The position numbers and the translations under genes are program-made. Shown here in pieces: positions 1 through 61,084 of a DNA stretch of 64,000 nt. The DNA lies in contig NC_134845.1 of the NCBI RefSeq assembly GCF_965363235.1, positions 64,695,261-64,759,260 on the forward strand. The letters are read 5' to 3'. Source of the DNA: Mytilus galloprovincialis. Taxonomy: Eukaryota; Mollusca; Bivalvia; Mytilida; Mytilidae. Under the pieces are notes generated by a model. The model had not been told where the DNA came from, did no database searches, and was given only the letters and a program-made list of their open reading frames with translations. The first letter of the stretch is position 1, and every line of letters starts with the position of its first letter.

Positions 1-200
1 CATCTGCATACATAAGTAAATACAGGTTCAACATTTTTAACTCATAAGGTTGACATCCTTGACTAATAAGCTCTATTTCCATGTCATTTACGTACAATGA
101 ATATAAAAATGGGGATAATGATTCCCCCTGCATTAAACCAACATTACTATTAAAAAAATTTGAGAAGCTACCATCAAATTTTACACAACATTTATAAGTT
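1..200 (-). pseudogene. Continuation of the LINE reverse transcriptase after a frame break
   Basis: Read on the minus strand in the frame next to that of the main ORF, this segment continues the RT palm: a G-L-M-Q-G-E-S-L-S-P-F-L-F stretch (RT motif 4, usually V-x-Q-G-x-x-L-S-P), a L-Y-V-N-D-M segment, and M-Y-A-D at the window edge, the first residues of the catalytic Y-A-D-D box. A single base gained or lost near 190-200 separates it from the upstream frame. The element continues beyond base 1. Confidence 0.8.
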
Positions 201-2754
201 TTGAATAGATAGATTTTAATACATTTAATAGTTTACCAGTAACACCTAATCTGATAAGTCGTAACCATAACTTCATATGTGTGACACTGTCAAACGCCGT
301 TTTATAGTCAACAAAACAACAATAAAATCTTTTACCAGATCTCAGAGATTTTGAAATTAAAGAATTGAGAGCGAAGATGGCGTCAGTAGTACCATAACCG
401 GGTCGGAAGCCAAACTGGGCATCTGTTAGTACATCATGGTTTCTACTCCATTTAGTAAGTCGAGCGTTGATGAGAGTTGTAAACAGCTTTCCAATATGGG
501 ACACAAGAGATATTCCACGAAAGTTTCCAGGCTGATTAAAGTCACCTTTTTTGAATACAGGGATAATAATACTTTTTACCCACAATTCAGGGAAGTCACC
601 ATTTGTAAGAATACAGTTAAATATTTTACACAACACAGGTTTAATGAAATTTTTACTCATAATAATGTACTCGTTCATCATATTATCGTATCCTGTAGAT
701 TTGTCTCGTTTTAACTTTTTAATACCATCATCAAGTTCTTTTTCCGTAAATGGAGAATCAAGCTCATCGAACACAGTACCTGTATTTTCGCCTGGTAAAT
801 CTTGCGGATGTATATCTGGGTTTGATGTTAATTTCTTAAAATGTTCTTCAAACTGCTCTAAAGTTATATTCGGATGTACAACTTTTTTACGTTTCTTAAA
901 TTTCCTATAGAATTGCTTCGGATTAGTCCTTTTTAACGAAGCCATCATGTTACCTCTTTGATTCTTATATTGTCTTTTCAGTTTATTTTCAAGCCACTTA
1001 TATTTCTGTTTTGCTAAATTAAGACTGAGTCTATTTTCATTGGACCTGTACTTATTAAAAGTTCCTAGTGCCTGTTGGTAAGCATTATATAAGTTTTTAC
1101 ATTCATCTGTAAACCAGGGTTTATCCGTTGTAGTTTTAAATTGTTTATAATCATCAGTACATATATCACAGTATTTTTTATGTCTAATTTCTGACTTTGT
1201 AAACTGTTCAAAAATATCAGACAAAAGTTTATTTAATTCATCCACGCAGATATTGGTGTCACTATTTTCATCTATATTGGTCAACATATCCTCAAACTGC
1301 TGGGCGTTAGCCAACAAACTCTCTCTGACGTCATCTTCGCACTCGTTTCTCCATTTAAAAGTATTATAAACATGTTTACTACATGAGCATTGATCTTTGA
1401 TCAAGTTTACAGTATTGTCCCTAAGGTAAAATTGAACTGACAATGGAGCGTGACATGAAAAACTAGTAAACATTCCTACGTGAAAACTCTTTACCATCTT
1501 AAACATATTCTCATATAATAATAAATAGTCAATTACACTACAACCATTTTTATTATTAAAAGTTATTTTACCACTATCTTCGCCAAAACGTCCGTTACAG
1601 ATGCGTAACCCGGAGGATTTACATAATTGTAAAATTCTTTGTCCGAAACTGTTGGGCGCTTTTGTATCCTCGGAATGTCTCTGTACAAAATCTTGCCTAT
1701 CATTTTCATAATCAATAAATGAGATATTGTCTAGTAATAATGGATCTAAGAAATCGTTCAATAAATAGTCCGGTTTCAAACCAACACGACCATTTAGGTC
1801 TCCTAAAACAGCTACTGTACCAATATTATAAAGAGATTCTATTTGTTCTTGCAAAATGTCAAATACATCACAGTTATATTTACGATAAAACACATTTTTA
1901 ACAGGAGGCATATATATAGAGCATATGTATAAATCTAAATTATCAAGTGTTATACTTTTATCAATTTTAAACCAAATCATACAATCCACACAACATTTCA
2001 CAATTTCAATAAATGGGCTAATCCATTTTTTATAAAACACTACTATTCCACCCCCGTTACATTTCTCTCTGTATAAACATTTTTTGTCGTAACCTTTTAG
2101 ATCAAATTCTCCAGGGAATTTGACCCAGCACTCATTGAAACACAGAATATCGTATTTCTTTATAATTTTCAAAAAATTTCCATCTTTTAGCTTTCGTATT
2201 ATTCCTTTCGAAATATTCCAAGAACACACATTTAAACACTCATGATTTCCCGTTTTAATATTACATTTGTTTTGTTTGACATCACACTCCGCTGGTCCCC
2301 ACTCCTTCCACAATTGACCGTTAACAAATAACTTATCGCCGAAAATATATGCCTTCTTATGATTTTTCCGCTGTTGTTTCATTATTGGAATAAGCTTTTT
2401 ACGTTTTTCAAGTACAACCTTTGGATAATGGGGGCTTATACCAAAATGTGTGTCCTTTTGGCGATTCGATACACTGCGGACATACTCCCTGTCGGACATA
2501 TCGCAGAATTTAGCCACGATTGGTCTAGGCTTTGACGCGTTAGTGTTGGGTTTTCCTAATCGGTATGCCTTTTCAATTTTAATTTTGTGCCTAGCATTTT
2601 CAATGTTGAGAAATTGTTCACCAAAATTAAGCACTGTGTCGATACAGTTTTCACTCTCTTGTACCGCGTCACTCTTCTTATCCACTGTTCCCGTTGTACC
2701 CCCCCTTATTTTCATCATTTGTTTCAACATTGTCATATTTTTCTTCCAGCGCAA
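181..2754 (-). pseudogene. LINE ORF1 C-terminal region fused in frame to endonuclease and reverse transcriptase
   Basis: Open for 857 codons, but the first codon is not ATG: the open frame simply begins at the upstream frame break. Residues ~30-160 resemble the RRM and C-terminal part of LINE ORF1 proteins (A-Y-R-L-G-K, then R-P-I-V-A-K-F, then R-K-K-L-I-P). An AP endonuclease follows at ~175-445 (N-V-C-S-W-N-I, N-E-C-W, G-D-L-N-G-R at ~318, S-C-H-A-P near its end), then a linker and the RT from ~670 (K-S-T-G-Y-D, I-I-P-V-F-K-K-G, F-R-G-I-S-L, A-Q-F-G-F-R-P-G-Y-G-T, F-V-D-Y-K-T-A-F-D). It stops at a frame break just before the catalytic Y-A-D-D. No stop codon separates the ORF1-like part from the endonuclease, which is unusual: the two are normally separate ORFs. 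Confidence 0.85.
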
Positions 2755-3424
2755 AGAACAGAAGGTTTTGTTTCAGATTATCTGTTTCTATGTCTATCAG
2801 TTTGTCTCGGACAAATATTGTGTCTGTTTTTGTCGTCTCAATACCATTGTTGATACAATCAACCCTCTTTTTAAGGGCTATGTGTTCATCTTTTATATCT
2901 GATAAAAATTGTGCACTTTCTTCCAACTTGCTTATTCTGTCTTTGCATTGGATCATTTCGTTATCAAGTTTATTGTGTTTTGTGTCCATCTTTTCTAAAC
3001 GTTCTTCAATTTTATCTAGAGTGCTTAGTTTTTTCTCGACTCTTGTCATACGATGGCAGAGCTCTTTGAAATAATTTTCAATTGCGGGTGGTATGGGGGA
3101 TGGCGGCATTGGTGTTGTCATCATCGGCGGAGGGTACGACATGTATTGGGGCATACTTTGAAATCCCATAGGTGTACTTGTCATTTGTGTGTAACTTCCT
3201 TGATTTAGTGAGTTATTCATTGCCATGCTTGTATATTGATCGGAACTTGAGTTGTCTTCACTAAGTGTGTCTGAACGTACCTTGTTTTTGTTGTTGTTTT
3301 CTTTGTTTACGTCCGTACACTGTCTTTTGTTCACTAAACCAGATAGGTCCGATGAGGAAGAATTTTCAGATTTGTGTTTTTGAGCTGTTGATCGCCGTGG
3401 ACGATTTCGCTTTCTCCCGGGCAT
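2678..3424 (-). CDS. LINE ORF1, N-terminal coiled-coil part
   Basis: About 248 codons from the ATG at 3424; the codon just before it is GTG and less likely to be the start. Residues 1-35 are basic (R/K-rich, probable nucleic-acid binding). A Met/Pro-rich linker follows, then a heptad-like Leu/Ile region from ~115 to ~215, a likely coiled coil for trimer formation as in other LINE ORF1 proteins. It ends with N-L-L-F-F, which usually starts the RRM-like domain, and then hits a stop just after the G7 run. The rest of the RRM is in the neighbouring frame, so this protein is probably cut short by a homopolymer indel. Confidence 0.7.
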   Translation of the reverse strand: MPGRKRNRPRRSTAQKHKSENSSSSDLSGLVNKRQCTDVNKENNNKNKVRSDTLSEDNSSSDQYTSMAMNNSLNQGSYTQMTSTPMGFQSMPQYMSYPPPMMTTPMPPSPIPPAIENYFKELCHRMTRVEKKLSTLDKIEERLEKMDTKHNKLDNEMIQCKDRISKLEESAQFLSDIKDEHIALKKRVDCINNGIETTKTDTIFVRDKLIDIETDNLKQNLLFFALEEKYDNVETNDENKGGYNGNSG

Positions 3425-19400: not shown

Positions 19401-22400
19401 ATTAAAATTTCAAAAACTTTAACCACAGAGTGAATATTTGTGGACGCCGCCGACGACGACGACGCCGACGACGACGGAATGTAGGATCGCTTAGTCTCGC
19501 TTTTTCGACTAAAGTCGAAGGCTCGACAAAAATAATCTTGATGCTCTTATAGACCATCTTTGAAGGCTAAATTAGCACTCATCTGTCTAAAAATGAATTT
19601 TATTACACAATAACTTTCCTATTTGAAAAATCCACAGGGGCCAAAATGCGAAAATAACCTCCTAACTGTGTATTGCTACCTTAATAGTAAATATTTTTTT
19701 TCAAATTCTCCCTTTTAACTTATTTTCTGAGTTCTGCTAGCTAATACGAGTAAAATGGCCTTTTATTTTTGAAAATTGGTTGAGTAATGAATATTTTATG
19801 AAGGTTAGCAGTTGACACTGAAACGCGACAAAAACTGATTTTAAAGAAAGGTGCCAAGTCGCAGTGTAAAATCTTGTCTCTACCTCAATTTTTAGCCAAA
19901 TCTTAAAAACTGTACCTCTTTTGTCAGTTTTTTAATGTTGAATATCTTAATAAGATCTCTGATGATGCAACATTGTATAAAATTTAGCAATTTCAAGCAT
20001 AGAAATGTTAATCTTTATGCTTATTGCATACCAAAGACTTGATTAAAAAACTTGGTGATAGGGAATCAATTTCTTACATCTGATTTAACTATACATTTAA
20101 TATATGCCAAAATGTAACATGAAATCTTGATAAAAACAATAATTTGGTATATTCGCAAGAAAAAAACCAACGCGTTCAATACTCAGGCTACTACATGCAG
20201 CCCAATCCATCAGAAGCAAGATTTAAGCCGATAGAGTACAAATATAAGCCTTGTGTCAAAATGTCTAATTTTGGTTGCTAAGGACTGTAAACAATAAAAT
20301 TGACATATATTGTCATTCTTAAACACTTAATTTACTCAGAAGTTGATGTAGAATCTAAATATCAATAGATTTGTGGCATAAAAAGTCTTAAATTATACAA
20401 TTCTGAGCTTGGTAAGTATGCCATAAGGTAGCAATAAACAGTTAGAAAAAAATAATAAATTTGCCCTTATGAATTTTACCATCCCCTTTTCATTGCTTTT
20501 TTTCAATATCAAGCTTACTGTTTGTGTCATATATGGTCATATGTATGTAATCAGAATCTTCCATATATTTTATATCCAGTATATAAAATGGTAAAATATA
20601 ATTTCTTTTTGGTGTATCCATGGCAACAATCTGCATTTATTCATTATAAAATATTGCAAAAAGAGGGGGGGGGGGGAAAGATGTCACATATTTTCCCAAA
20701 ATTTGGCTAAAAGTAGAATTTCAATCGCTTGAAGTAATACCTTTTCTGAAACTGTGTACATATATCATTCAGCAAATCCAATGAAAATCATATGTCTTTC
20801 ATCTCATTTTTTTGTAAAATTGCGTCAAAAACTTCGTGTAGAAAAAGAATGTTTGTAAACAGTACATTAATTTCTGGACCGATGGCCGGTCTAGCTATGA
20901 AAATACGGATTGTCAAACAGAAAACAGCCCATAAAACATGTAAAAAATAATCTTGATTCTCTTATAAACCATCTTTGAAGGCTAAATTAGCACTCATCTG
21001 TCTAAAAATGAATTTTATTACACAATAACTTTCCTATTTGAAAAATCCACAGGGGCCAAAATGCGAAACTAAACTCCTAACTGTGTATTGCTACCTTAAG
21101 GTAGATGGGGTGTCTAAATTATAATCCATAGAATCTTTTAATAATTTGCCAAAATGGAGTTCATATCCTGCTTGTTTAAAAACATTAATAAAAAGAATGG
21201 GTCACCAGACTTATTTTCACGCTACAGGTTGTTCAAAATTGTCAAGATTTTGTATAGATTATGCATGGAAAACCCATTTTTCCGCCATGAAACGCAAACC
21301 ACACCATAGAATTTTGAGATAAAATATGAGAAGATAGCTTCAATATTATGCTTTCAGATAAGAAAAAGAAAAAATGGGGTCACCGGACTCGTTTTCTTGC
21401 TGCATGTAAAAATGGGTAAATTCCTAACACATTCTATTGTAAAAGTAACACTATCTGAATTATCTGCCCTTGCATTTGAGTTGCCTCCCCTTATTTGTCA
21501 AAGTTTGAAAAAAATGAATCAAACAAAAGAATTCTTATTTTTGTAAAATACAATAATAAATATGATCAAACAAGGCATTTTCTATATTATAATGAAAATT
21601 CTTACACATGAATTACCCACTACTATAAAAATTTGCACATTTCATCAAAGATCTAGACCTTGTTTTCTAGTATTTCAAAATCCAAGATGGAGGAAGACAC
21701 CCTATCTACCTTAAACGAACAAATTCTAAAGTTAACAGAACCGGAAAATGTGGAAAATGAGATAATAGATTCAGATGAATATTCAGTGGATATGGAAACA
21801 AAGATTCGCCACATACGTAAGTTCATACAAAATGTCCAAACACCACAGTCCCGTCATATTGATTCACATACAACAACCCACACATTAAATCCAGAAACTA
21901 TACCGTTTGTTCCAACGCACAACATAGCCAACCCACACAACGCACAGTCGTTTGAGAACCCATCTGTACAAGCCAGTCATACGTTCAACACACAGCAAAG
22001 TACATTTTCGTCAGCTAGTAGTCACCGCCTACCAAAACTTTCGCTTCCAATATTCTCAGGCAACATCTTAGAATGGCAAACTTTCTGGGACTCATATGAG
22101 TCGGCCGTACACCTTAACTTGTCACTTACAAATGTACAAAAATTCAATTACTTGAAAGCACAGCTAGAACATGAAGCACTAGATTCTATAACAGGGTTCG
22201 CACTAACAAATGTTAACTACGATGAAGCCGTAAATTTGCTAAAAGAGAGGTTCGGTCAACAAGACAAAATCATAAATGCATACATGCAGGCATTATTAGA
22301 AATCCCTTCGCCTAGAAATCAACTTACAAGCTTACGAAGATTTTACGATAAAATGGAAAGTTACGTCAGGGGATTAGAAGCTTTAGGTCAGACATAAGAA

Positions 22401-25400
22401 ACATACGGTACTCTGCTTGTTCCAATTATTATGAAGAAATTACCCGGGGAAGTCAGACAACATCTCGCGCGAGAACATAGAATACAAACTTGGGTATTAC
22501 GGGACCTCCGTAAAAGCATTTTAGATGAAATTAATATAATAGACGCAGGACAAGAGATAGAGTCGACAAACCATTTGCCCACAACATCGTCTTTTTTTGC
22601 CGGAGCGAAATCGGCAAAGTCCAAATCTTTCAAGAATATTGAGACAAGACCTTGTGTGTTTTGTCATGAAATACACGCACCTACCCAGTGCAGTAAAATA
22701 ACAGACACAGAATCCCGTATGATCATAGTAAAACGAGATAAGTTATGCTTTAACTGCCTTGGTAACCACAGACTCAACGAATGTAAATCTGAGAATACAT
22801 GTAGATATTGTAACAGAAAACACCATACAAGCTTATGTAATGCCCACAAAACAAACGACATAAGACCAGGTAATGAAGAAAGCTATAGAAATGGAGGTAA
22901 TACTTCAACGCATACGAATTTCCGCGCAAATGATAACCAGAGCAGCAACCCGCTAAACCCGCCATCTTTGAATTCGACAAACGTTCACCTTGTAAATGAT
23001 AGTCATACAACGGAACAAGATACTACCATTTTGTATTCAAAATCGAAAGAATCACGATCAAATGTACTGTTGAAAACCGCCGTAGCACAAGTTGGATCGA
23101 ACCAGCACTTTATGGATACGAATATTCTCCTTGACGAAGGAGCGCAAAGATCGTTTTTAACGCAGGAAGTAGCGAATAAACTTCACTTACAGATAGAGGG
23201 AACAGAAATTACAGTTATCGGCATTTGAAGGTAAAGAGAAAACCGCTAGACACTTACAAAAGACAACAGTCTACCTGAAAACCGATGCAGGACACGTAAT
23301 GCCAATCAAAGTACTGATAGTACCTTTCATTGCTATGCCTCTACAGAATCAAATGAGTAACATTGATACGAAATATGAATATTTACGTGGTTTGAAGTTA
23401 GCGCACACGATGACACAGCAAGATTCATTCGAGATATCGTTGCTAGTAGGCGCAGATCACTACTGGGACATTGTAGAAGACCATATAGTACGGGGAAACG
23501 GTCCGACAGCCGTGAAATCTAAGATAGGATATTTGCTTTCAGGACCTACATACGGTAAAGAGATCGTCACGTCGAACAATAACACGCTTAATATTTCACA
23601 CATTGCTGTAGATTACAATCTAGAGAGACATCGAAAATTGGAGTCAATAGGTTATAGTAAGGAGATAGACAAAGACGATGATGCATGTATTAAAGCCTAT
23701 CAGGACAGATCAATTGAGTTATGTGCGCGTGGAAATAAAGATTACGCTATGCTACCAGGGAAACAAGACGTTGATGATTTATCTACAAATTTAACCGTTA
23801 CGAGGAGAAGGACAGAAAACGTCACTACAAGACTCGCCCAAATTCCAGATATGTTGAAGGGAGACATTATACAAAAACAGAAAGGACGGGGATTCAGAAA
23901 GAAGGTGACTAAAATCACAGAAACTTCAAGAAAGGACAATCCTTATCATCCAGTACATAGGAAATCGAGCATCACTCGTATCAGAATTGTTAACAACTGC
24001 AGAAAAAGGAAAAGATGGAAATCCGAATACCATGTCGTTACGTAAATTTTATGGGACAACCGGTAATAATGAACAATTCAGTACAAAACTTCCAGAAAAT
24101 TCCGTGAAGAAATAGTCCGTGAGACCATACCGAATTGGATACATCAGTGATGTCACGTTTAGCGCAAAGTTGAATTTTATTTTATTTCATGAGAGACTTT
24201 AATTGAATTTAATCGCTAAATGTAATTTCCGTTTTATATGATTTGCTCAGTATTACAAAGAAAAACACAACGCGAGAGACAATTTCAAAGTGATATTATT
24301 TTTAATGGACAATTGAGATTTTTATACAATTGTGATAATTTTTACTTTTTCGCGGCCCCAGTATGTTGAGATTATCGCGGGAACATAACGTTCCAACTAT
24401 TGTACATGTCTATTGTCGACGTCGTATTGTCAGTGACGTGGCCTTGGGCGGAAATACGTACTTGTATATTAAATGTAATGGCTGAACAGTTGTTGTAATA
24501 TCGTTGCCTGAACTATCATCTATAATACTGTTGGCCTGCTTTTAGTGTTAGTTAATCGAAGAATATGGAGGATTGTGTGTGTAAAGCTAGACCTACTTAT
24601 TCTGTTACAAGTTTACTCTTTAAAAGCTAGAGTGCTTCACAGTATAAAGTCAGATTTTTTTTCGTGTTTTTGTGACTTATCAACTTTGTACTTGTTTGTC
24701 TTTATAAATATTTTGATATGAGCGTCACTGATGAGTCTTATGTAGACGAAACGCGCGTCTGGCGTACTAAAATATAATCCTGGTACCTTTGAAAACTATT
24801 ATAGAGTTTTGATATTGATCACCAGAAGATGTTTATTACATTTTTTTATTTACTTGTTTCAGTTTCATTATAAGTAGTATTAGTTATAATGAAAAATGCA
24901 ACCTAACATTGAGTATCTCTTTGGTGAGACAAACACACGATATCGTTTGTTCTGACTGTATATTTTTACCCTATTTTCTGCTAATACAAATCATCTTAGT
25001 ACTATAATCTATTCTTATTTCGATTTTGGAATTGTGAGTTTTTCTCCCCATAGCAGCAATATTTAAACTTTGCCAGTATATGGAATATACATTATTTAAG
25101 TCATACGATATTCAAAAGTTGCAGTTGCTACCTATACTTGTAAAACGTCATCGGTGCCATGGCAAAATATTTCTTACAAAGTTCACCGGCAAGTAATCAG
25201 ACCAAATAGCTACATAATTACTACATAATGGTCTTGAATTATAGATTATAGGAGCTGACGTTGTGTATCCGTTTGTTTACTTTACAGTTTTTCCTATACC
25301 TGTCTTTGTACGATTAAATCTTTTTGTGTTGTATGATTCTTGAGTGACTCGGTATTTGTCCATCCAGCTCTCGTTTATTTTTGGCTATGGGCGTTCCTGA

Positions 25401-32569: not shown

Positions 32570-34730
32570 CAATAAAGAAGATTCATTTACATTATACTGA
32601 ACTAACAAGGAACGTTCCTAAGCAGTAAACTGCAACATTCATTAACAGTACATCGACCAACAAGGAATTGAATTAATAGTGCAATGTAAACAAGGAAAAT
32701 TCTGTAACAGTACCTTGCAATGAAGGAACATTCATTAACAGCATACTGACCAACAAGGAACATTGATTACCAGTACCCTGTAATCAATGAACATTCATTA
32801 ACAGTATACTGACCAACAAGGAACATTAATTACCAGTACCCTTCAATCAATAAACATGAATCAACAGTTTAACTTTTGGATGCTTATTTGATTTGCAGTA
32901 TCAAACAAGAATGTGTCCCCAGTACACGGATGTCCCATCCGCATTATCATTTTCTGTGTTCAGTGGACCGTGAAAATGGGATAAAATCTCTAATATGGCA
33001 TTAAAATTAGAAAGATCATATCATATGGAATATGTGTACCAAGTTTCGAGTTGATTGGACTTCGACTTCATCAAAAACTACCTCGACCAAAAACTTTAAC
33101 CTGAAACTTGCACTATTATTTTCTATGTTCAGTAGACCATTACATTGGGGTCAAAACTCTAATTTGGCATTAAAATTAGAAAGATTAAATCATAAGGAAC
33201 ATGCGTAGTAAGTTTAAAGTTGATTGGACTTCAACTTCATCAAAAACTACCTCGACCAAAAATTTTAACCCGAAGCGGGGCGAACGGACGGACGGACGAA
33301 CGGACGAACAAACAGACGGGCGAACGGACCCACAGACCAGAAAACATAATGCCCATAAATGGGACATAAAAAGGAACATTTATTATCGGTACCCTACAAT
33401 CAATGAACATTCATTAACAGTATACTGACCAACAAGGAACATTAATTACCAGTACCCTACAATCAATGAACATTCATTAACAGTATACTGACCAACAAGG
33501 AACATTAATTATCAGTACCCTACAATCAAGGAACATTCATTAACAGTATACTGACAACAAGGAACATTAATTACCAGTACCCTACAATCAAGGAACATTC
33601 ATTAACAGTATACTGACCAACAAGGAACATTAATTAACAGTATACTGACCAACAAGGAACATTAATTACCAGTACCCTACAATCAAGGAACATTCATTAA
33701 CAGTATACTGACCAACAAGGAACATTAATTATCAATACCCTACAATCAAGGAACATTCATTAACAGTATACTGACCAACAAGGAACATTTATTATCAGTA
33801 CCCTACAATCAATGAACATTCATTAACAGTATACTGACCAACAAGGAACATTAATTATCAGTACCCTACAATCAAGGAACATTCATTAACAGTATACTGA
33901 CCAACAAGGAACATTAATTATCAGTACCCTACAATCAAGGAACATTCATTAACAGTATACTGACAACAAGGAACATTAATTAACAGTATACTGACCAACA
34001 AGGAACATTAATTATCAGTACCCTACAATCAAGGAACATTCATTAACAGTATACTGACAACAAGGAACATTAATTACCAGTACCTTACAATCAATGAACA
34101 TTCATTAACAGTATACTGACAACAAGGAACATTAATTATCAGTACCCTACAATCAATGAACATTCATTAACAGTATACTGACCAACAAGGAACATTAATT
34201 ATCAGTACCCTACAATCAAGGAACATTCATTAACAGTATACTGACCAACAAGGAACATTAATTAACAGTATACTGACCAACAAGGAACATTAATTACCAG
34301 TACCCTACAATCAAGGAACATTCATTAACAGTATACTGACCAACAAGGAACATTAATTATCAATACCCTACAATCAAGGAACATTCATTAACAGTATACT
34401 GACCAACAAGGAACATTTATTATCAGTACCCTACAATCAATGAACATTCATTAACAGTATACTGACAACAAGGAACATTAATTATCAGTACCTTACAATC
34501 AAGGAACATTCATTAACAGTATACTGACCAACAAGGAACATTTATTATCAGTACTCTACAATCAAGGAACATTCATTAACAGTATACTGACCAACAAGGA
34601 ACATTAATTATCAGTACCCTACAATCAAGGAACATTCATTAACAGTATACTGACCAACAAGGAACATCAATTATCAGTACCCTATAATCCACGAACATTC
34701 ATAAACAGCATGCTGAACAACAAGAAACAT
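32570..34730 (+). repeat. Satellite array, ~63-bp unit with higher-order structure
   Basis: Units alternate GGAACATTCATTAACAGTA-TACTGACCAACAA and GGAACATTAATTATCAGTA-CCCTACAATCAA. The first ~300 bp and last ~60 bp are diverged. Marker variants (ATCAATACCC at 33731 and 34359; TAATTAACAG at 33631 and 34259) recur at exactly 628 bp, so ten units form a higher-order unit. A pearl-like element interrupts it at 32.9-33.37 kb. Confidence 0.9.
32905..33368 (+). mobile_element. Pearl-like non-autonomous element, two core units
   Basis: Left end ACGGATGTCCCATCC, two cores ~169 bp apart (CCTCGACCAAAAA near 33081 and 33250), ACGG microsatellite (33285-33330), right end AAATGGGACATAAAA. The inverted pair is ATGTCCCAT/ATGGGACAT. 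Confidence 0.7.
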
Positions 34731-34734
34731 AAAT

Positions 34735-35020
34735 TAACAGTGCAATGCAGACAAGGAAATTATTTTAACAGTTTACGTTAACTAGGTGGATATCATATAT
34801 AAATATATATCATTGTGGTATGTCCAATATATAGAATGCACAGTTTGCTGATATATGGATGTCCAAATATATAGAGCAAAAAAAAACCCTAAAAAATCAG
34901 TTCCAAGAATGCTATTTTTGTTGTTGCAGAATCGCTTAAACTTTATGTTATCGTTTACGTATGTTTTAAAATGATTTGCAATTCGAAAGATATTTTTCAT
35001 TTTTACCTCATAAGTTTATT
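34735..35020. other. Short non-coding spacer
   Basis: No gene recognised. Confidence 0.35.
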
Positions 35021-45564: not shown

Positions 45565-46775
45565 TCTTTATACAAGAAATCGTGTTGTGTGTCCTCTAGC
45601 TACGGATGATGTAGTCTGTAGCTCTAGCGTTGGTATTGCTACGAGGCCATGTACTATTCTGTACATTATTACTGCTTTGCAGTTGACCCTCCTCTCGGCT
45701 AGTGGTTTCCACTGTAGAGTTTTTAGCATTGATGTTACACTGCTGGTTTGTTGGTAGTTGTTCAATACAAACCGAGCTGATCTTCTTTGCACACTTACTA
45801 ATTTCTGTATGTTAAGGTTGGTGAACGGGTCCCAGACTGAGCATGCATACTCAAGCAATGGTCTTACTAGCGTTGTGTAGCATACAGATTTTGTTTGTTT
45901 GGGACAGTGCTGAAGATTTCTTTGGATGAAGGCCCTGGTTGAATTAGCATTTTAGCTATGACCTCTATGTGGGTGTTCCAATTAATAGTTTTGTGGATTG
46001 TTACGCCTAGATAGTTTGCCGAGAAAACCAGTTCTAAATTGTGCCCACGAATGTTGTAGCTTGTGAGATGAGGTTTGCGCTTGTTGCTTACGCGTTTCAG
46101 TTGGCATTTGCTTGGATGAAATTCTATTTGCCAATCAGATTCCCATCTGAGCAAGTTGTTCGTGTCTTCTTGTAGTAGATGTGAGTCAGCATCATTTTTA
46201 TCATACTGTATATTACGCAGTCATCTGCAAATAAATGAACTGTTGATGACTGTACATAGTCTGGTAGGTCGTTGATGAACAGAAGGAACATGAGTGGTCC
46301 AAGTACGCTGCCCTGTGATACACCTGATTGGACTGGTGCAGTGTGATATGTTTTACCATCCACAAAGACTCTCTGATTTCTGGAGCTGAGGAAGTCTATG
46401 ATCCACTGGAGTGTTGGCCCGCTGATACCATAGTACTCTGCTTTGTACAATAGTCTCTCATGGGGACTTTATCGAATGCCTTGAAAAAATCATGCAAGAT
46501 ATTAAGGTCAATTTGTTCACCGAGATTTATGTTTTTAGCCAGCTCCTGTATTGTAAGGATAAGTTGTGACTCGAGGGAACGGTTCTTTCTAAATCCATGT
46601 TGAGCGTCGTTTAGGATACCATGGATATCAAGATGTTTTGCAATACTAATGCATAGTATGTGCTCTAGGATCTTGCATGTGACAACAGTCAATGAAACTG
46701 GACGGTAGTTACTGGTACGTGATTTATCTCCTTTCTTGAAAATTGGAACAATTGGCTTCTTTCCATTCTAGTGGT
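45565..46775 (-). pseudogene. CR1/jockey-like LINE reverse transcriptase remnant
   Basis: Minus strand, at least four frame segments: I-F-K-K-G-D-K, then S-L-T-V-V-T-C-K-I-L-E (46.68-46.76 kb), A-Q-H-G-F-R-K-N-R-S, F-F-K-A-F-D, S-Q-G-S-V-L-G-P-L-M-F and L-F-A-D-D-C-V-I-Y (catalytic box intact), then Y-L-G-V-T-I and the C-terminal E-Y-A-C-S-V-W-D-P. Endonuclease and 5' end are absent (truncated at ~46775). Frame breaks occur at ~46.45, 46.14 and 45.86 kb. Confidence 0.88.
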
Positions 46776-54054: not shown

Positions 54055-54784
54055 ATATATTTAAGATGTTTAACTGAAACATAATTATGTGGTTGTATAT
54101 GTAAAGCCTTTTGACAGTCAAAAATATCGCCTAGTGTAGGTTTTTTTACTTGATATTTTCAAATACTAGAAGTAGATGCACGTGGACATGCACTAAAGTT
54201 AGCATCTGTTCAAAACATATATTTACTGAATGATAAAAGAAAAACATGCATGTACAACTACAACTAAATAGGATTAATTTAACTATAACAATAACATTTT
54301 CAAATGTTTGTCTGTGGTTAGCTATCAAAGATAAAAACAACAAAACAAAACAACAAAACACAACTTAATGTAAACGGGGGACATTTGAGTATATAATAAG
54401 TGTGATACATGCATGAATTAATTTAGTGTATATAGAAAAGTAAAGTTATTTATAAAATTAAAAAATAAAAAATGAGATAGCTCGTGTAATATATCATCGG
54501 CTTTCAGAAATAAAAGTGCACATACCCCATGCACCCAACAGTAATTGCCACTCCAGGCAAAAAGACGCATTACTGCTAAAAACGTCAAATAATAAAAATT
54601 TCCACATTTACATATTATGTCCTCATTAACTACATGTTTCATGAAATTCTCTTGTGTGGTTTCAAAAGTTGCGATGACAAACTGTTGCGGCAGTTGTATA
54701 GACCAGTCAGTGACAACTCTACAACAGATGTATCCATCGGATCGCCATCAATGATCAATGATGGTGATACATGGCTGTGTACAT
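54055..54784. other. Spacer
   Basis: No gene recognised. Confidence 0.35.
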
Positions 54785-54836
54785 TATGTATATACAACTC
54801 GTCTAAGCATCAACCCAACAATGTTAGATCTGTAAA

Positions 54837-55806
54837 GGACAAGGTTCACTAATGGCACAAAATGGCCTAAAATATCAACTTTATCATAAAACACCAAAAA
54901 GGTCTCAATTTGGTTCGTAAATGGGTCTATTTCTAATCTAACTAAAAACCGATCTCTCATCGCTCCTGTTTCTGATATGTCGCGTGGGAGATCTAACGAA
55001 ACCCGCTTTGAGGTCACATGTGAGTGACCTCGTAGGTGTGTCTTTTTCGACCAATGAAATTGAGTCTTCCACGATCTTGGAAGTTTAACGTAAGGCAAAG
55101 GGATGTAACTCATTTTATTTACGACGAAGTCGTCAGTCATAATAATTCATAAACTTTTTTGATTGGCTTATTAATAGGTCGTCAACTCATTTGCATATCT
55201 TTATAAATTCATGACTTTTAGTTCACTCACATGTGACCTCAAAGCCGGTTTCGTTAGATCTCCCACGCGACATATCAGAAACAGGAGCGATGAGAGATCG
55301 GTTTTTAATTAGATTGGTCTATTTCAAAAGTATAAATGCTAAAAATATCAGTTCTTTTCATAAGACTACAAGATATTCGCCAAAGTAAGCCCATTTTGGA
55401 CATATTGTCAAAATATGATGATTTTGTGCATTTTTCAGACCTAAAAGCTTTTGAAACACCTTGGCCGCAACCTACGATCCAGAATGTGTTGTAACCAAAA
55501 GATTCCAATTTTGATATAGATTTCATCAATATAAAAACTTTTTGGATCGTAGATGGAGGCCAAGGTTAATTATGCCAAAAACAATTAAAATTATTGACAA
55601 AAAGTACCAAAATTGACCTTTTAATACAAATTATGCTCATTTAAGGGGTCATTGCTCCATAAATAGTAAAGGAAAGTGCTAGAAAAAATATTTATGTCTT
55701 ATTAGTATTATTACAAGTATTTCTATGTGACATTTGTAATTTTTTGCTCCAATTTAAAAAACATAAAAAAATCAGGGCCAATTTTAACCCTTCGTGAACC
55801 TTCTCC
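54837..55806. mobile_element. Spy-like non-autonomous TIR element, no target duplication
   Basis: 970 bp, ends GGACAAGGTTCAC and its reverse (one mismatch in 13). It lies between ...TGTAAA and TTTGCTTT... of the SINE; the plus-strand SINE copy shows the uninterrupted TGTAAATTTGCTTT. So nothing was duplicated or lost on insertion at AAA|TTT, the diagnostic trait of the Spy group. It carries a further foldback inside and has no transposase. Confidence 0.78.
54934..55315. mobile_element. Foldback element with ~97-bp arms and 10-bp direct repeats
   Basis: Arms run from AATCTAACTAAAAACCGATC to ~55029 and, reversed, 55220-55315, with about three mismatches. GGTCTATTTC stands on both sides (54924-54933 and 55316-55325). 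A 9-11 bp duplication with long inverted repeats is typical of Mutator-like (MULE) elements. It is nested in the Spy-like element. Non-coding. Confidence 0.72.
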
Positions 55807-55886
55807 TTTGCTTTCGCAAATTTTTTGTTCTTCCCTCGCCGGGATTCGAACCCATGCTACTGTGATATCGTGACACCAAATCGCCT

Positions 55887-55944
55887 GTACTACAGTACAT
55901 GTACAATAACATCTCCATGCCTTATATATCATGTACTGTAGTAC
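55887..55944. repeat. 15-bp perfect hairpin within SINE head
   Basis: Arms 55887-55901 and 55930-55944 (GTACTACAGTACATG and reverse), 28-nt loop. In the plus SINE this place holds only ~14 unrelated bases. Confidence 0.8.
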
Positions 55945-56006
55945 GCCGCTAGATTAAAACTGACGAGGAAAGGTAACACACGGCCACTGAAAGCTTTATT
56001 ATTGTA

Positions 56007-56185
56007 GAGCCCAGGTGGTCGTGTGGTCTAGCGGGACGGCTGCAGTGCAGGCGATTTGGTGTCACGATATCACAGTAGCATGGGTTCGAACCCCGGCGAG
56101 GGAAGAACAAAAAATTTGCGAAAGCAAATTTACAGATCTAACATTGTTGGGTTGATGTTTAGACGAGTTGTGTATATATATATAT
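56007..56185 (+). mobile_element. tRNA-type SINE, plus copy
   Basis: Starts GAGCCCAGGTGGTCG. A box TGGTCTAGCGG (56024-56034) and B box GGTTCGAACCC (56083-56093), both matching RNA polymerase III consensus, sit ~49 bp apart as in tRNA-derived SINEs. The body GGAAGAACAAAAAATTTGCG and tail run into TA repeats. The A-B region does not fold as a clean tRNA with a clear anticodon, so it is not called a tRNA gene. Confidence 0.75.
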
Positions 56186-60567: not shown

Positions 60568-60599
60568 TATAAACAAACGAGTTGTCTGTCCCAGCATCA
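60568..60599 (+). promoter_or_regulatory. TATA box and initiator of the protamine-like gene
   Basis: TATAAA at 60568-60573; initiator TCAGTCTT with A at 60599, 31 bases downstream. This predicts a 5' leader of only 25 bases, as in histone genes. Confidence 0.65.
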
Positions 60600-60623
60600 G
60601 TCTTGTATCACCCAACAAGAAGG

Positions 60624-60938
60624 ATGCCAAGCCCAACTCGTCGTTCATCCAAGTCCAGGTCCAAAAGCAGGAGCAGGAGCAGGTCAGCCTCCGCCTCCCC
60701 CGGAAAGGCAGCAAAACGTGCTCGTTCCAAGACCCCAAGAAGGGGAAAGAAAAGGGCAAGGTCTCCATCCAAAAAAGCAAGAAGGAGGTCTAGGTCTACC
60801 AAGAAGACAGCAGCTAAGAGGAGGAAGAGGTCCTCATCACCAAAGAAAAGGAGGTCTGCTGGAAAGAGGAGAGTAAGAGCAAAGAAAGGAGGAAAGAGAA
60901 GGAGGTCAAGGGGAAAGAAAGCCGCAGCAAAGAAATAA
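60624..60938 (+). CDS. PL-III: Sperm protamine-like protein, Mytilus PL-III (phi2B) type
   Basis: 104 codons from the first ATG; the longer frame from 60582 begins at TTG and is not used. The protein is about half Lys and Arg (51 of 104), rich in Ser, Ala and Pro, with no Asp, Glu or Cys. It begins P-S-P-T-R-R-S-S, then an (R/K-S)n run, S-P-x-K blocks typical of H1-like tails, and a Lys/Arg-rich end (G-K-K-A-A-A-K-K). It binds DNA in the sperm nucleus, replacing histones together with PL-II and PL-IV. No winged-helix is present, as expected for PL-III. Intronless, with TATA, initiator, a short leader and a histone-type stem-loop 36 bases after the stop. The S-P sites are candidates for phosphorylation. 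No other PL gene in the window. The sequence match is from recognition, not a search. Confidence 0.88.
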   Translation: MPSPTRRSSKSRSKSRSRSRSASASPGKAAKRARSKTPRRGKKRARSPSKKARRRSRSTKKTAAKRRKRSSSPKKRRSAGKRRVRAKKGGKRRRSRGKKAAAKK

Positions 60939-60974
60939 GACATGTAGCTGACGACCGCTAGTTTGCCACACAAC

Positions 60975-60990
60975 GGCCCTTTTAAGGGCC
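60975..60990 (+). promoter_or_regulatory. Histone-type 3' stem-loop
   Basis: GGCCCT-TTTA-AGGGCC: a perfect 6-bp stem with 4-base loop, fitting the replication-dependent histone mRNA signal. CAAAAAGAA about 13 bases later could be the U7-binding downstream element. Confidence 0.75.
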
Positions 60991-61084
60991 AACCATATTT
61001 TTCAAAAAGAATTTAGATTTTGTTACATTAGTTCGTATAACCTAATAATTACAAGTTAAAAACGACGCCTAAAACAAAAGATAA

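Follow-up and report, generated by a model that had tools for sequence, protein, structure and literature searches.

The element and the repeat that it interrupts

The window, which here means the whole 64-kb stretch analysed (G000:C8:64695261-64759260, in an assembly of 1.385 Gb), has an A+T content of 67% and carries two copies of a host repeat, one of which is split by an inserted element. The features on which the argument depends are as follows.

54705..54836, minus strand: host repeat, interrupted copy, one side
54834..54836, plus strand: target half-site AAA, left flank of the element
54837..55806, plus strand: non-autonomous element of Spy-like type; 970 bp in the window, of which about 578 bp remain once the nested element is removed
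54837..54849, plus strand: left terminal inverted repeat, GGACAAGGTTCAC, 13 bp
54924..54933, plus strand: target duplication of the nested element, copy 1, GGTCTATTTC
54934..55315, no strand assigned: nested element of 382 bp whose inverted arms are 131 bp long (85%)
55316..55325, plus strand: target duplication of the nested element, copy 2, GGTCTATTTC
55458..55566, plus strand: internal stem-loop (CCTTGGCC...GGCCAAGG), z of -6.6 for 55440-55580
55794..55806, minus strand: right terminal inverted repeat, GGAGAAGGTTCAC, 12/13 against the left, with a weaker likeness to about 34 nt
55807..55809, plus strand: target half-site TTT, right flank of the element
55807..55895, minus strand: second part of the interrupted host-repeat copy (tRNA-like)
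55903..56180, plus strand: host repeat, whole sister copy
56126..56131, plus strand: unoccupied AAATTT site of the sister host-repeat copy

The 970-bp insert (54837-55806) has TGTAAA on one side and TTTGCTTT on the other, and the sister copy at 56040-56180, which starts 234 bases beyond the end of the insert, reads GCAAATTTACAG at the target site without a break. Interrupted and sister copies share arms of 52 nt (94%) and 89 nt (97%). The boundary of the insert cannot slide, because its first base is G and its last is C and its flanks are AAA and TTT. When the joined flanks (120 bases) were used as an empty-site query across the genome, all 40 matches scored of 426 candidates spanned the junction and the full query, 38 at 120 bases, one at 119 and one at 122, as judged by length and identity (97-99%) and not by alignment. 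The window insertion thus added the element alone, and its zero target duplication is confirmed. A preliminary description had read the site as an insertion between AAA and TTT with no duplication, with an empty sister site, in one of a pair of inverted repeats; for the window copy all of this is borne out, the minus copy being split and the plus copy whole.

The repeat itself had been called a SINE. What we take to be tRNA-like promoter boxes are indeed present, as judged by eye, but they belong to something longer. Homology with one locus, L065, covers both 55903-56180 and 54705-54836, and the repeat recurs at a spacing of 440-444 bp in places (C7:76197843-76198843, C5:40688083-40688643 and C2:57606669-57607231), so that it forms tandem arrays at other loci and, in the window, an inverted pair; the SINE label is therefore not settled.

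The 13-bp inverted ends of the preliminary description are present but imperfect, GGACAAGGTTCAC and GGAGAAGGTTCAC agreeing at 12 of 13 positions; identity of at least 12/13 at the deduced ends has a chance probability of about 2e-6. Matches to the end motif with up to two mismatches number two in the window against 1.05 expected, and 30 of 100 shuffles reach that, so two such matches are not unusual by themselves. The length of 970 bp was likewise right for the insert but includes a second, nested element, which leaves about 578 bp for the element proper; the majority sequence, built from the window row together with 46 fetched copies, is likewise 578 bp long. Because that majority sequence has the nested element's target site once and uninterrupted, the 10-bp duplication GGTCTATTTC is confirmed, and from its length we infer that the nested 382-bp element is Mutator-like. 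The arms of the internal stem-loop also occur in the majority sequence, and GGCCAAGGTT, which resembles an element end, sits within this stem-loop. The sole stop-to-stop frame of at least 110 codons over the insert lies on the minus strand (54784-55146) and crosses the insert border; a Pfam search with the 119-residue frame over the window copy gave no match above the cut-off.

The target rule across the genome

The exact left end of the element occurs 277 times genome-wide, against 58 for the reversed control, and is preceded by AAA in 223 of these. The right end extended by one base occurs 182 times against none for its reversed control, and TTT follows it in 152; the 30 without TTT include nine of the AAATTT class described below. 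AAA has a background frequency of 5% in the window. Exact-motif counts of this kind favour young copies. The places listed fall on 14 large contigs. A table of flanks was drawn up from 71 end occurrences in the 70 places read among the first 100 listed exact left ends. AAA stands to the left in 61 of the 71 and is lacking in 10; of the same 71, 53 have a right end that can be recognised, 3 a degraded one and 15 none. Among the 53 two-ended copies the flanks are AAA/TTT in 39, AAA/AAATTT in four and AAATTT/TTT in one (five with a 3-bp pattern), with a different left flank and TTT in five, AAA and a different right flank in three, and neither in one. These counts keep the flank-sharing pairs L015/L016 and L042/L063 and the nearly alike L038 and L051, and L065 entered them at two starts.

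Gap-free paralogous empty sites were obtained for five further insertions (L027, L068, L070, L044 and L028; best paralog 80-95%). L019 and L060 gave additional gap-free matches over the junction, shorter or in tandem repeats, which are counted outside the six insertions with empty sites. Duplication-free insertion at the AAATTT dyad is thus shown for most copies. The preliminary description had proposed a search of whether every copy sits between AAA and TTT; most do, as the left-end and right-end counts indicate, but a minority follows a 3-bp pattern instead. In G000:C3:68456327-68478613 the element ends recur at steps of about 3.03 kb, as if one insertion had been amplified with a tandem array.

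A minority class with a 3-bp duplication

The hexamer AAATTT lies 3' of nine of the 182 right ends and 5' of six of the 277 left ends. The complete 3-bp pattern is found in nine copies, five of the former nine having AAA/element/AAATTT (L040, L058, L065, L077 and L082) and four of the latter six having AAATTT/element/TTT. As to the other right ends followed by AAATTT, two form a local duplication at L081, in the first of which the left end is truncated; at L083 the left end is altered and flanked by ATT; and L084 has no recognisable left end. The two other left ends, C5:51450176 and C5:89857372, have AAATTT on the left and ATTGTC or AATATA on the right, and fit neither mode of insertion. The L081 locus (G000:C5:34894530-34895850) is duplicated, with its copies 665 bp apart, and its right flank (FGLHSLRSGGVTQ...) presumably resembles a tyrosine recombinase, to judge by eye.

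Four of the 3-bp insertions are backed by empty sites. That in L065 occupies a host-repeat position identical to that of the window insertion, in the opposite orientation, and the empty copies, namely the one in the window and L065's own neighbour, lack the 3 bp. At L058 all three fetched local paralogs (L095-L097) lack the 3 bp at the junction, as do all five fetched for C5:45405413 (L098-L100, L105 and L106), of which three are otherwise identical to the whole 62-base query. Seven paralogs were fetched for C7:42334411 (L101-L104 and L107-L109); five lack 3 bp there and two, L108 and L109, lack 4 bp. The net length relative to the query among the 40 scored empty-site matches for this class was -3 in 23, -1 in 10, -4 in four, -5 in three and 0 in none. 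From these 40, seven, all of the -3 kind, were fetched first, and then five of the other kinds as a check: three of the five lack 3 bp at the junction, with the difference made up elsewhere, and two lack 4 bp there. A paralogous empty site was searched for and not found for L077 and L017, none for C10:26835807 or L082 was among the 40 scored matches, and the paralogs of L040 are weak (70-77% identity).

These results show that a few copies duplicated 3 bp of the target, either AAA or TTT. The preliminary description had allowed that other copies with clear target duplications would tell against it, and this minority, nine copies of which four have empty-site support, is of that kind; absence of duplication in every copy, as in a strict definition of Spy, does not hold in view of those four. 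A change of the opposite sign may have occurred in L015 and L016, which by their flanks are copies of one insertion and read TCT/element/TTT. Two paralogous sites in L027:2371-2681 (73-75% identical) have an AAA that is missing in L015/L016 (start 1501), and 3 bp (AAA) may have been lost there at or after insertion.

The search for a transposase

The search for an autonomous copy covered 70 places out of the first 100 listed for the exact left end, 30 of them with 1.5 kb on each side and 40 with 4 kb inward of the end and 0.3 kb beyond it, and turned up no such copy. Four longer copies (L033, L056, L060 and L071) resolve into two pieces of the majority sequence that overlap by 4, 6, 9 and 5 bp, respectively, and so look like insertions into the element; that in L060 contains a hAT C-terminal domain. 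L034 measures 1327 bp and has an unexplained middle part. L049 has 23 bp of the end in common and looks like a truncated copy. At 16 listed places the end is followed by a different base; four of these were read (L011, L032, L066 and L075). Neither a tblastn search of a set of fetched loci, in which two PHIS proteins served as queries, nor a Pfam scan of ten ORFs revealed a Spy-clade gene with DDE and HTH domains. PF13359 was listed at 150 places. The genes at the two that were read, L079 and L080, have THAP, HTH_Tnp_4 and DDE_Tnp_4 domains, are ISL2EU-like, and were rejected as partners because they show no matching ends. On C1-C7 none of the 74 listed PF13359 places is near any of the 194 listed end places, the nearest being 59.8 kb away. 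The longer copy with a Spy/IS5-like DDE transposase that the preliminary description suggested looking for did not turn up in these searches, the four longer copies looking like the element plus other insertions. The name Spy accordingly refers to the target signature, as neither an autonomous copy nor a matching transposase was found in them.

Comparison with known transposons

Cut-and-paste transposons usually produce a target duplication of fixed length. Helitrons lack terminal inverted repeats and insert between A and T, unlike the mussel element, which has inverted ends. The closest comparison is with Spy, one of the PHIS members together with PIF/Harbinger, ISL2EU, Pangu and Nuwa, and sister to ISL2EU (PMC4482050, PMC11304231, each as far as covered). 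In the covered parts of the same two papers, Spy prefers AAATTT and makes no duplication, and the Colletes gigas Spy reportedly integrated in human cells without duplications as well; Spy is known from four mollusc species according to the part of PMC11304231 covered, and the part of PMC4482050 covered states that its own search may miss non-autonomous elements. The mussel family resembles Spy in its AAATTT target, its entry between AAA and TTT, the lack of duplication in the larger part of its copies, and its terminal inverted repeats (12/13, within a type whose repeats run from 5 to 691 bp). It differs in being short and without a transposase gene, in its minority with a 3-bp duplication, and in that a partner transposase was not found.

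ISL2EU shares with the family an A+T-rich palindromic target and ends that usually begin GG, but it duplicates the AT within A/AT/T (PMC4482050, in the part covered), and no such duplication is seen in the mussel family at the sites compared with empty copies. Duplications of 3 bp are made by PIF/Harbinger (TWA), Pangu (ANT) and NuwaI (CWG), according to the same portion of PMC4482050. Their length is that of the minority mode seen here; in those groups it is the rule with those motifs, whereas in the mussel family it is the exception and consists of AAA or TTT, so that the TWA of PIF/Harbinger is not matched.

Interpretation of the two insertion modes

Before a mechanism is considered, other origins of these patterns must be weighed. 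That the structure in the window arose by foldback or rearrangement of an inverted pair of host repeats, with no transposon insertion at all, might be suggested by two inverted copies lying close together, but elements with identical ends stand at many other places with different flanks, and the idea can be regarded as refuted. The family could instead be a non-autonomous element of ISL2EU or PIF/Harbinger that has lost its duplication, or in which the duplication was wrongly read. Spy and ISL2EU are sister clades (PMC11304231, as covered), the ends of ISL2EU usually start with GG and its target is A/AT/T (PMC4482050, as covered), and long ISL2EU-like genes (L079 and L080) are present in the genome; against this, no AT or TWA duplication is seen at the sites compared with empty copies, and those two genes do not have matching ends. 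Such an assignment is unlikely.

The 3-bp class also admits readings in which nothing was duplicated. Its targets may already have been AAAAAATTT or AAATTTTTT, with duplication-free insertion beside the usual dyad, in a genome where runs of A and T are common (67% A+T in the window); the lack of an empty site for L077 and L017, and the absence from the 40 scored matches of one for C10:26835807 or L082, leave room for this. Yet the fetched empty sites at L065, L058, C5:45405413 and C7:42334411 lack the 3 bp (4 bp in two of the seven at C7), three of the five C5:45405413 paralogs being otherwise identical over the 62-base query, and four independent prior expansions of 3 bp exactly at the junction would be needed, so that this origin is distinctly improbable. 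Some cut-and-paste transposons take flanking bases along, and the additional 3 bp might similarly have come from a donor site through imprecise excision. Since a donor site has AAA before the element and TTT after it, that origin predicts AAAAAA/element/TTT or AAA/element/TTTTTT; what is observed is AAA/element/AAATTT and AAATTT/element/TTT, and neither a left AAAAAA nor a right TTTTTT appeared in the flanks examined at the places read among the first 100 listed. Carriage from the donor is thus very improbable.

We consider it highly probable that this is a Spy-like non-autonomous family that joins at the AAATTT dyad, usually bluntly and occasionally with a 3-bp stagger, and that depends for its movement on a Spy-like DDE transposase acting in trans. 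It would be a MITE-like cut-and-paste family of about 578 bp, and the transposase would recognise ends starting with GGAC/GAAGGTTCAC together with the palindrome AAATTT. In both modes, a symmetric complex on the palindrome would join one end of the element at the dyad. A second joint directly opposite would give 0 bp and need no fill-in, and a second joint at the edge of the hexamer, 3 bp from the first, would leave a 3-bp gap to be filled in. We lean, with less assurance, toward a single Spy-like transposase with two geometries of strand transfer on one palindrome, 0 bp as the rule and a dyad-anchored minority of 3 bp, which would link the duplication-free Spy to its relatives with 3-bp duplications.

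The preliminary description had named the element a Spy transposon. "Spy-like" is justified by the target rule and the usual lack of duplication, but "a Spy" is not established; the family is filed under the former term because it matches the target rule, departs from a strict "never" and yielded no transposase. The 3-bp class contradicts the published rule that Spy makes no duplication. The portions of the literature covered, among them parts of PMC10294476 and PMC9179366 and exclusive of the founding description of Spy (Genome Biol Evol 2014, evu140), hold no account of this family or of 3-bp Spy products. A family with many recent copies, some of them in high-copy repeats that supply empty sites, allows the geometry of joining to be read from sequence, and the infrequent products with 3 bp suggest a shifted spacing of the two joints, with the same chemistry, as the way in which the duplication was lost. 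Some 3-bp products are predicted in the integration data of active Spy transposases.

Age of the family and other features of the window

Divergence from the majority sequence was tabulated in 47 rows, 46 copies and the window row. Nine of 55 copies fell outside 480-660 bp and were dropped, among them the window copy, which was re-added without its nested insert; L002-L007 come from the best-match list and lean young. Divergence is 0.7-4.6% in 27 of the 47 rows and 6.5-19.6% in 19, with L009 an outlier (0.73). Part of the family is therefore young, and the two groups suggest more than one wave.

The window also contains remains of retroelements:

181-2772, minus strand: retroelement remains, reverse transcriptase domain
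21657-24045: retroelement remains, with a DUF1759 ORF at 21657-22397
46396-46767, minus strand: retroelement remains, reverse transcriptase domain

At 60573-61014 lies what we take to be a sperm protamine-like gene, a short basic ORF rich in Arg, Lys and Ser that has no Pfam hit. The ORF is followed there by a histone 3' stem-loop (Rfam RF00032). Self-comparison of the window also reveals a large tandem array at 32570-34776, with a unit of about 63 bp.
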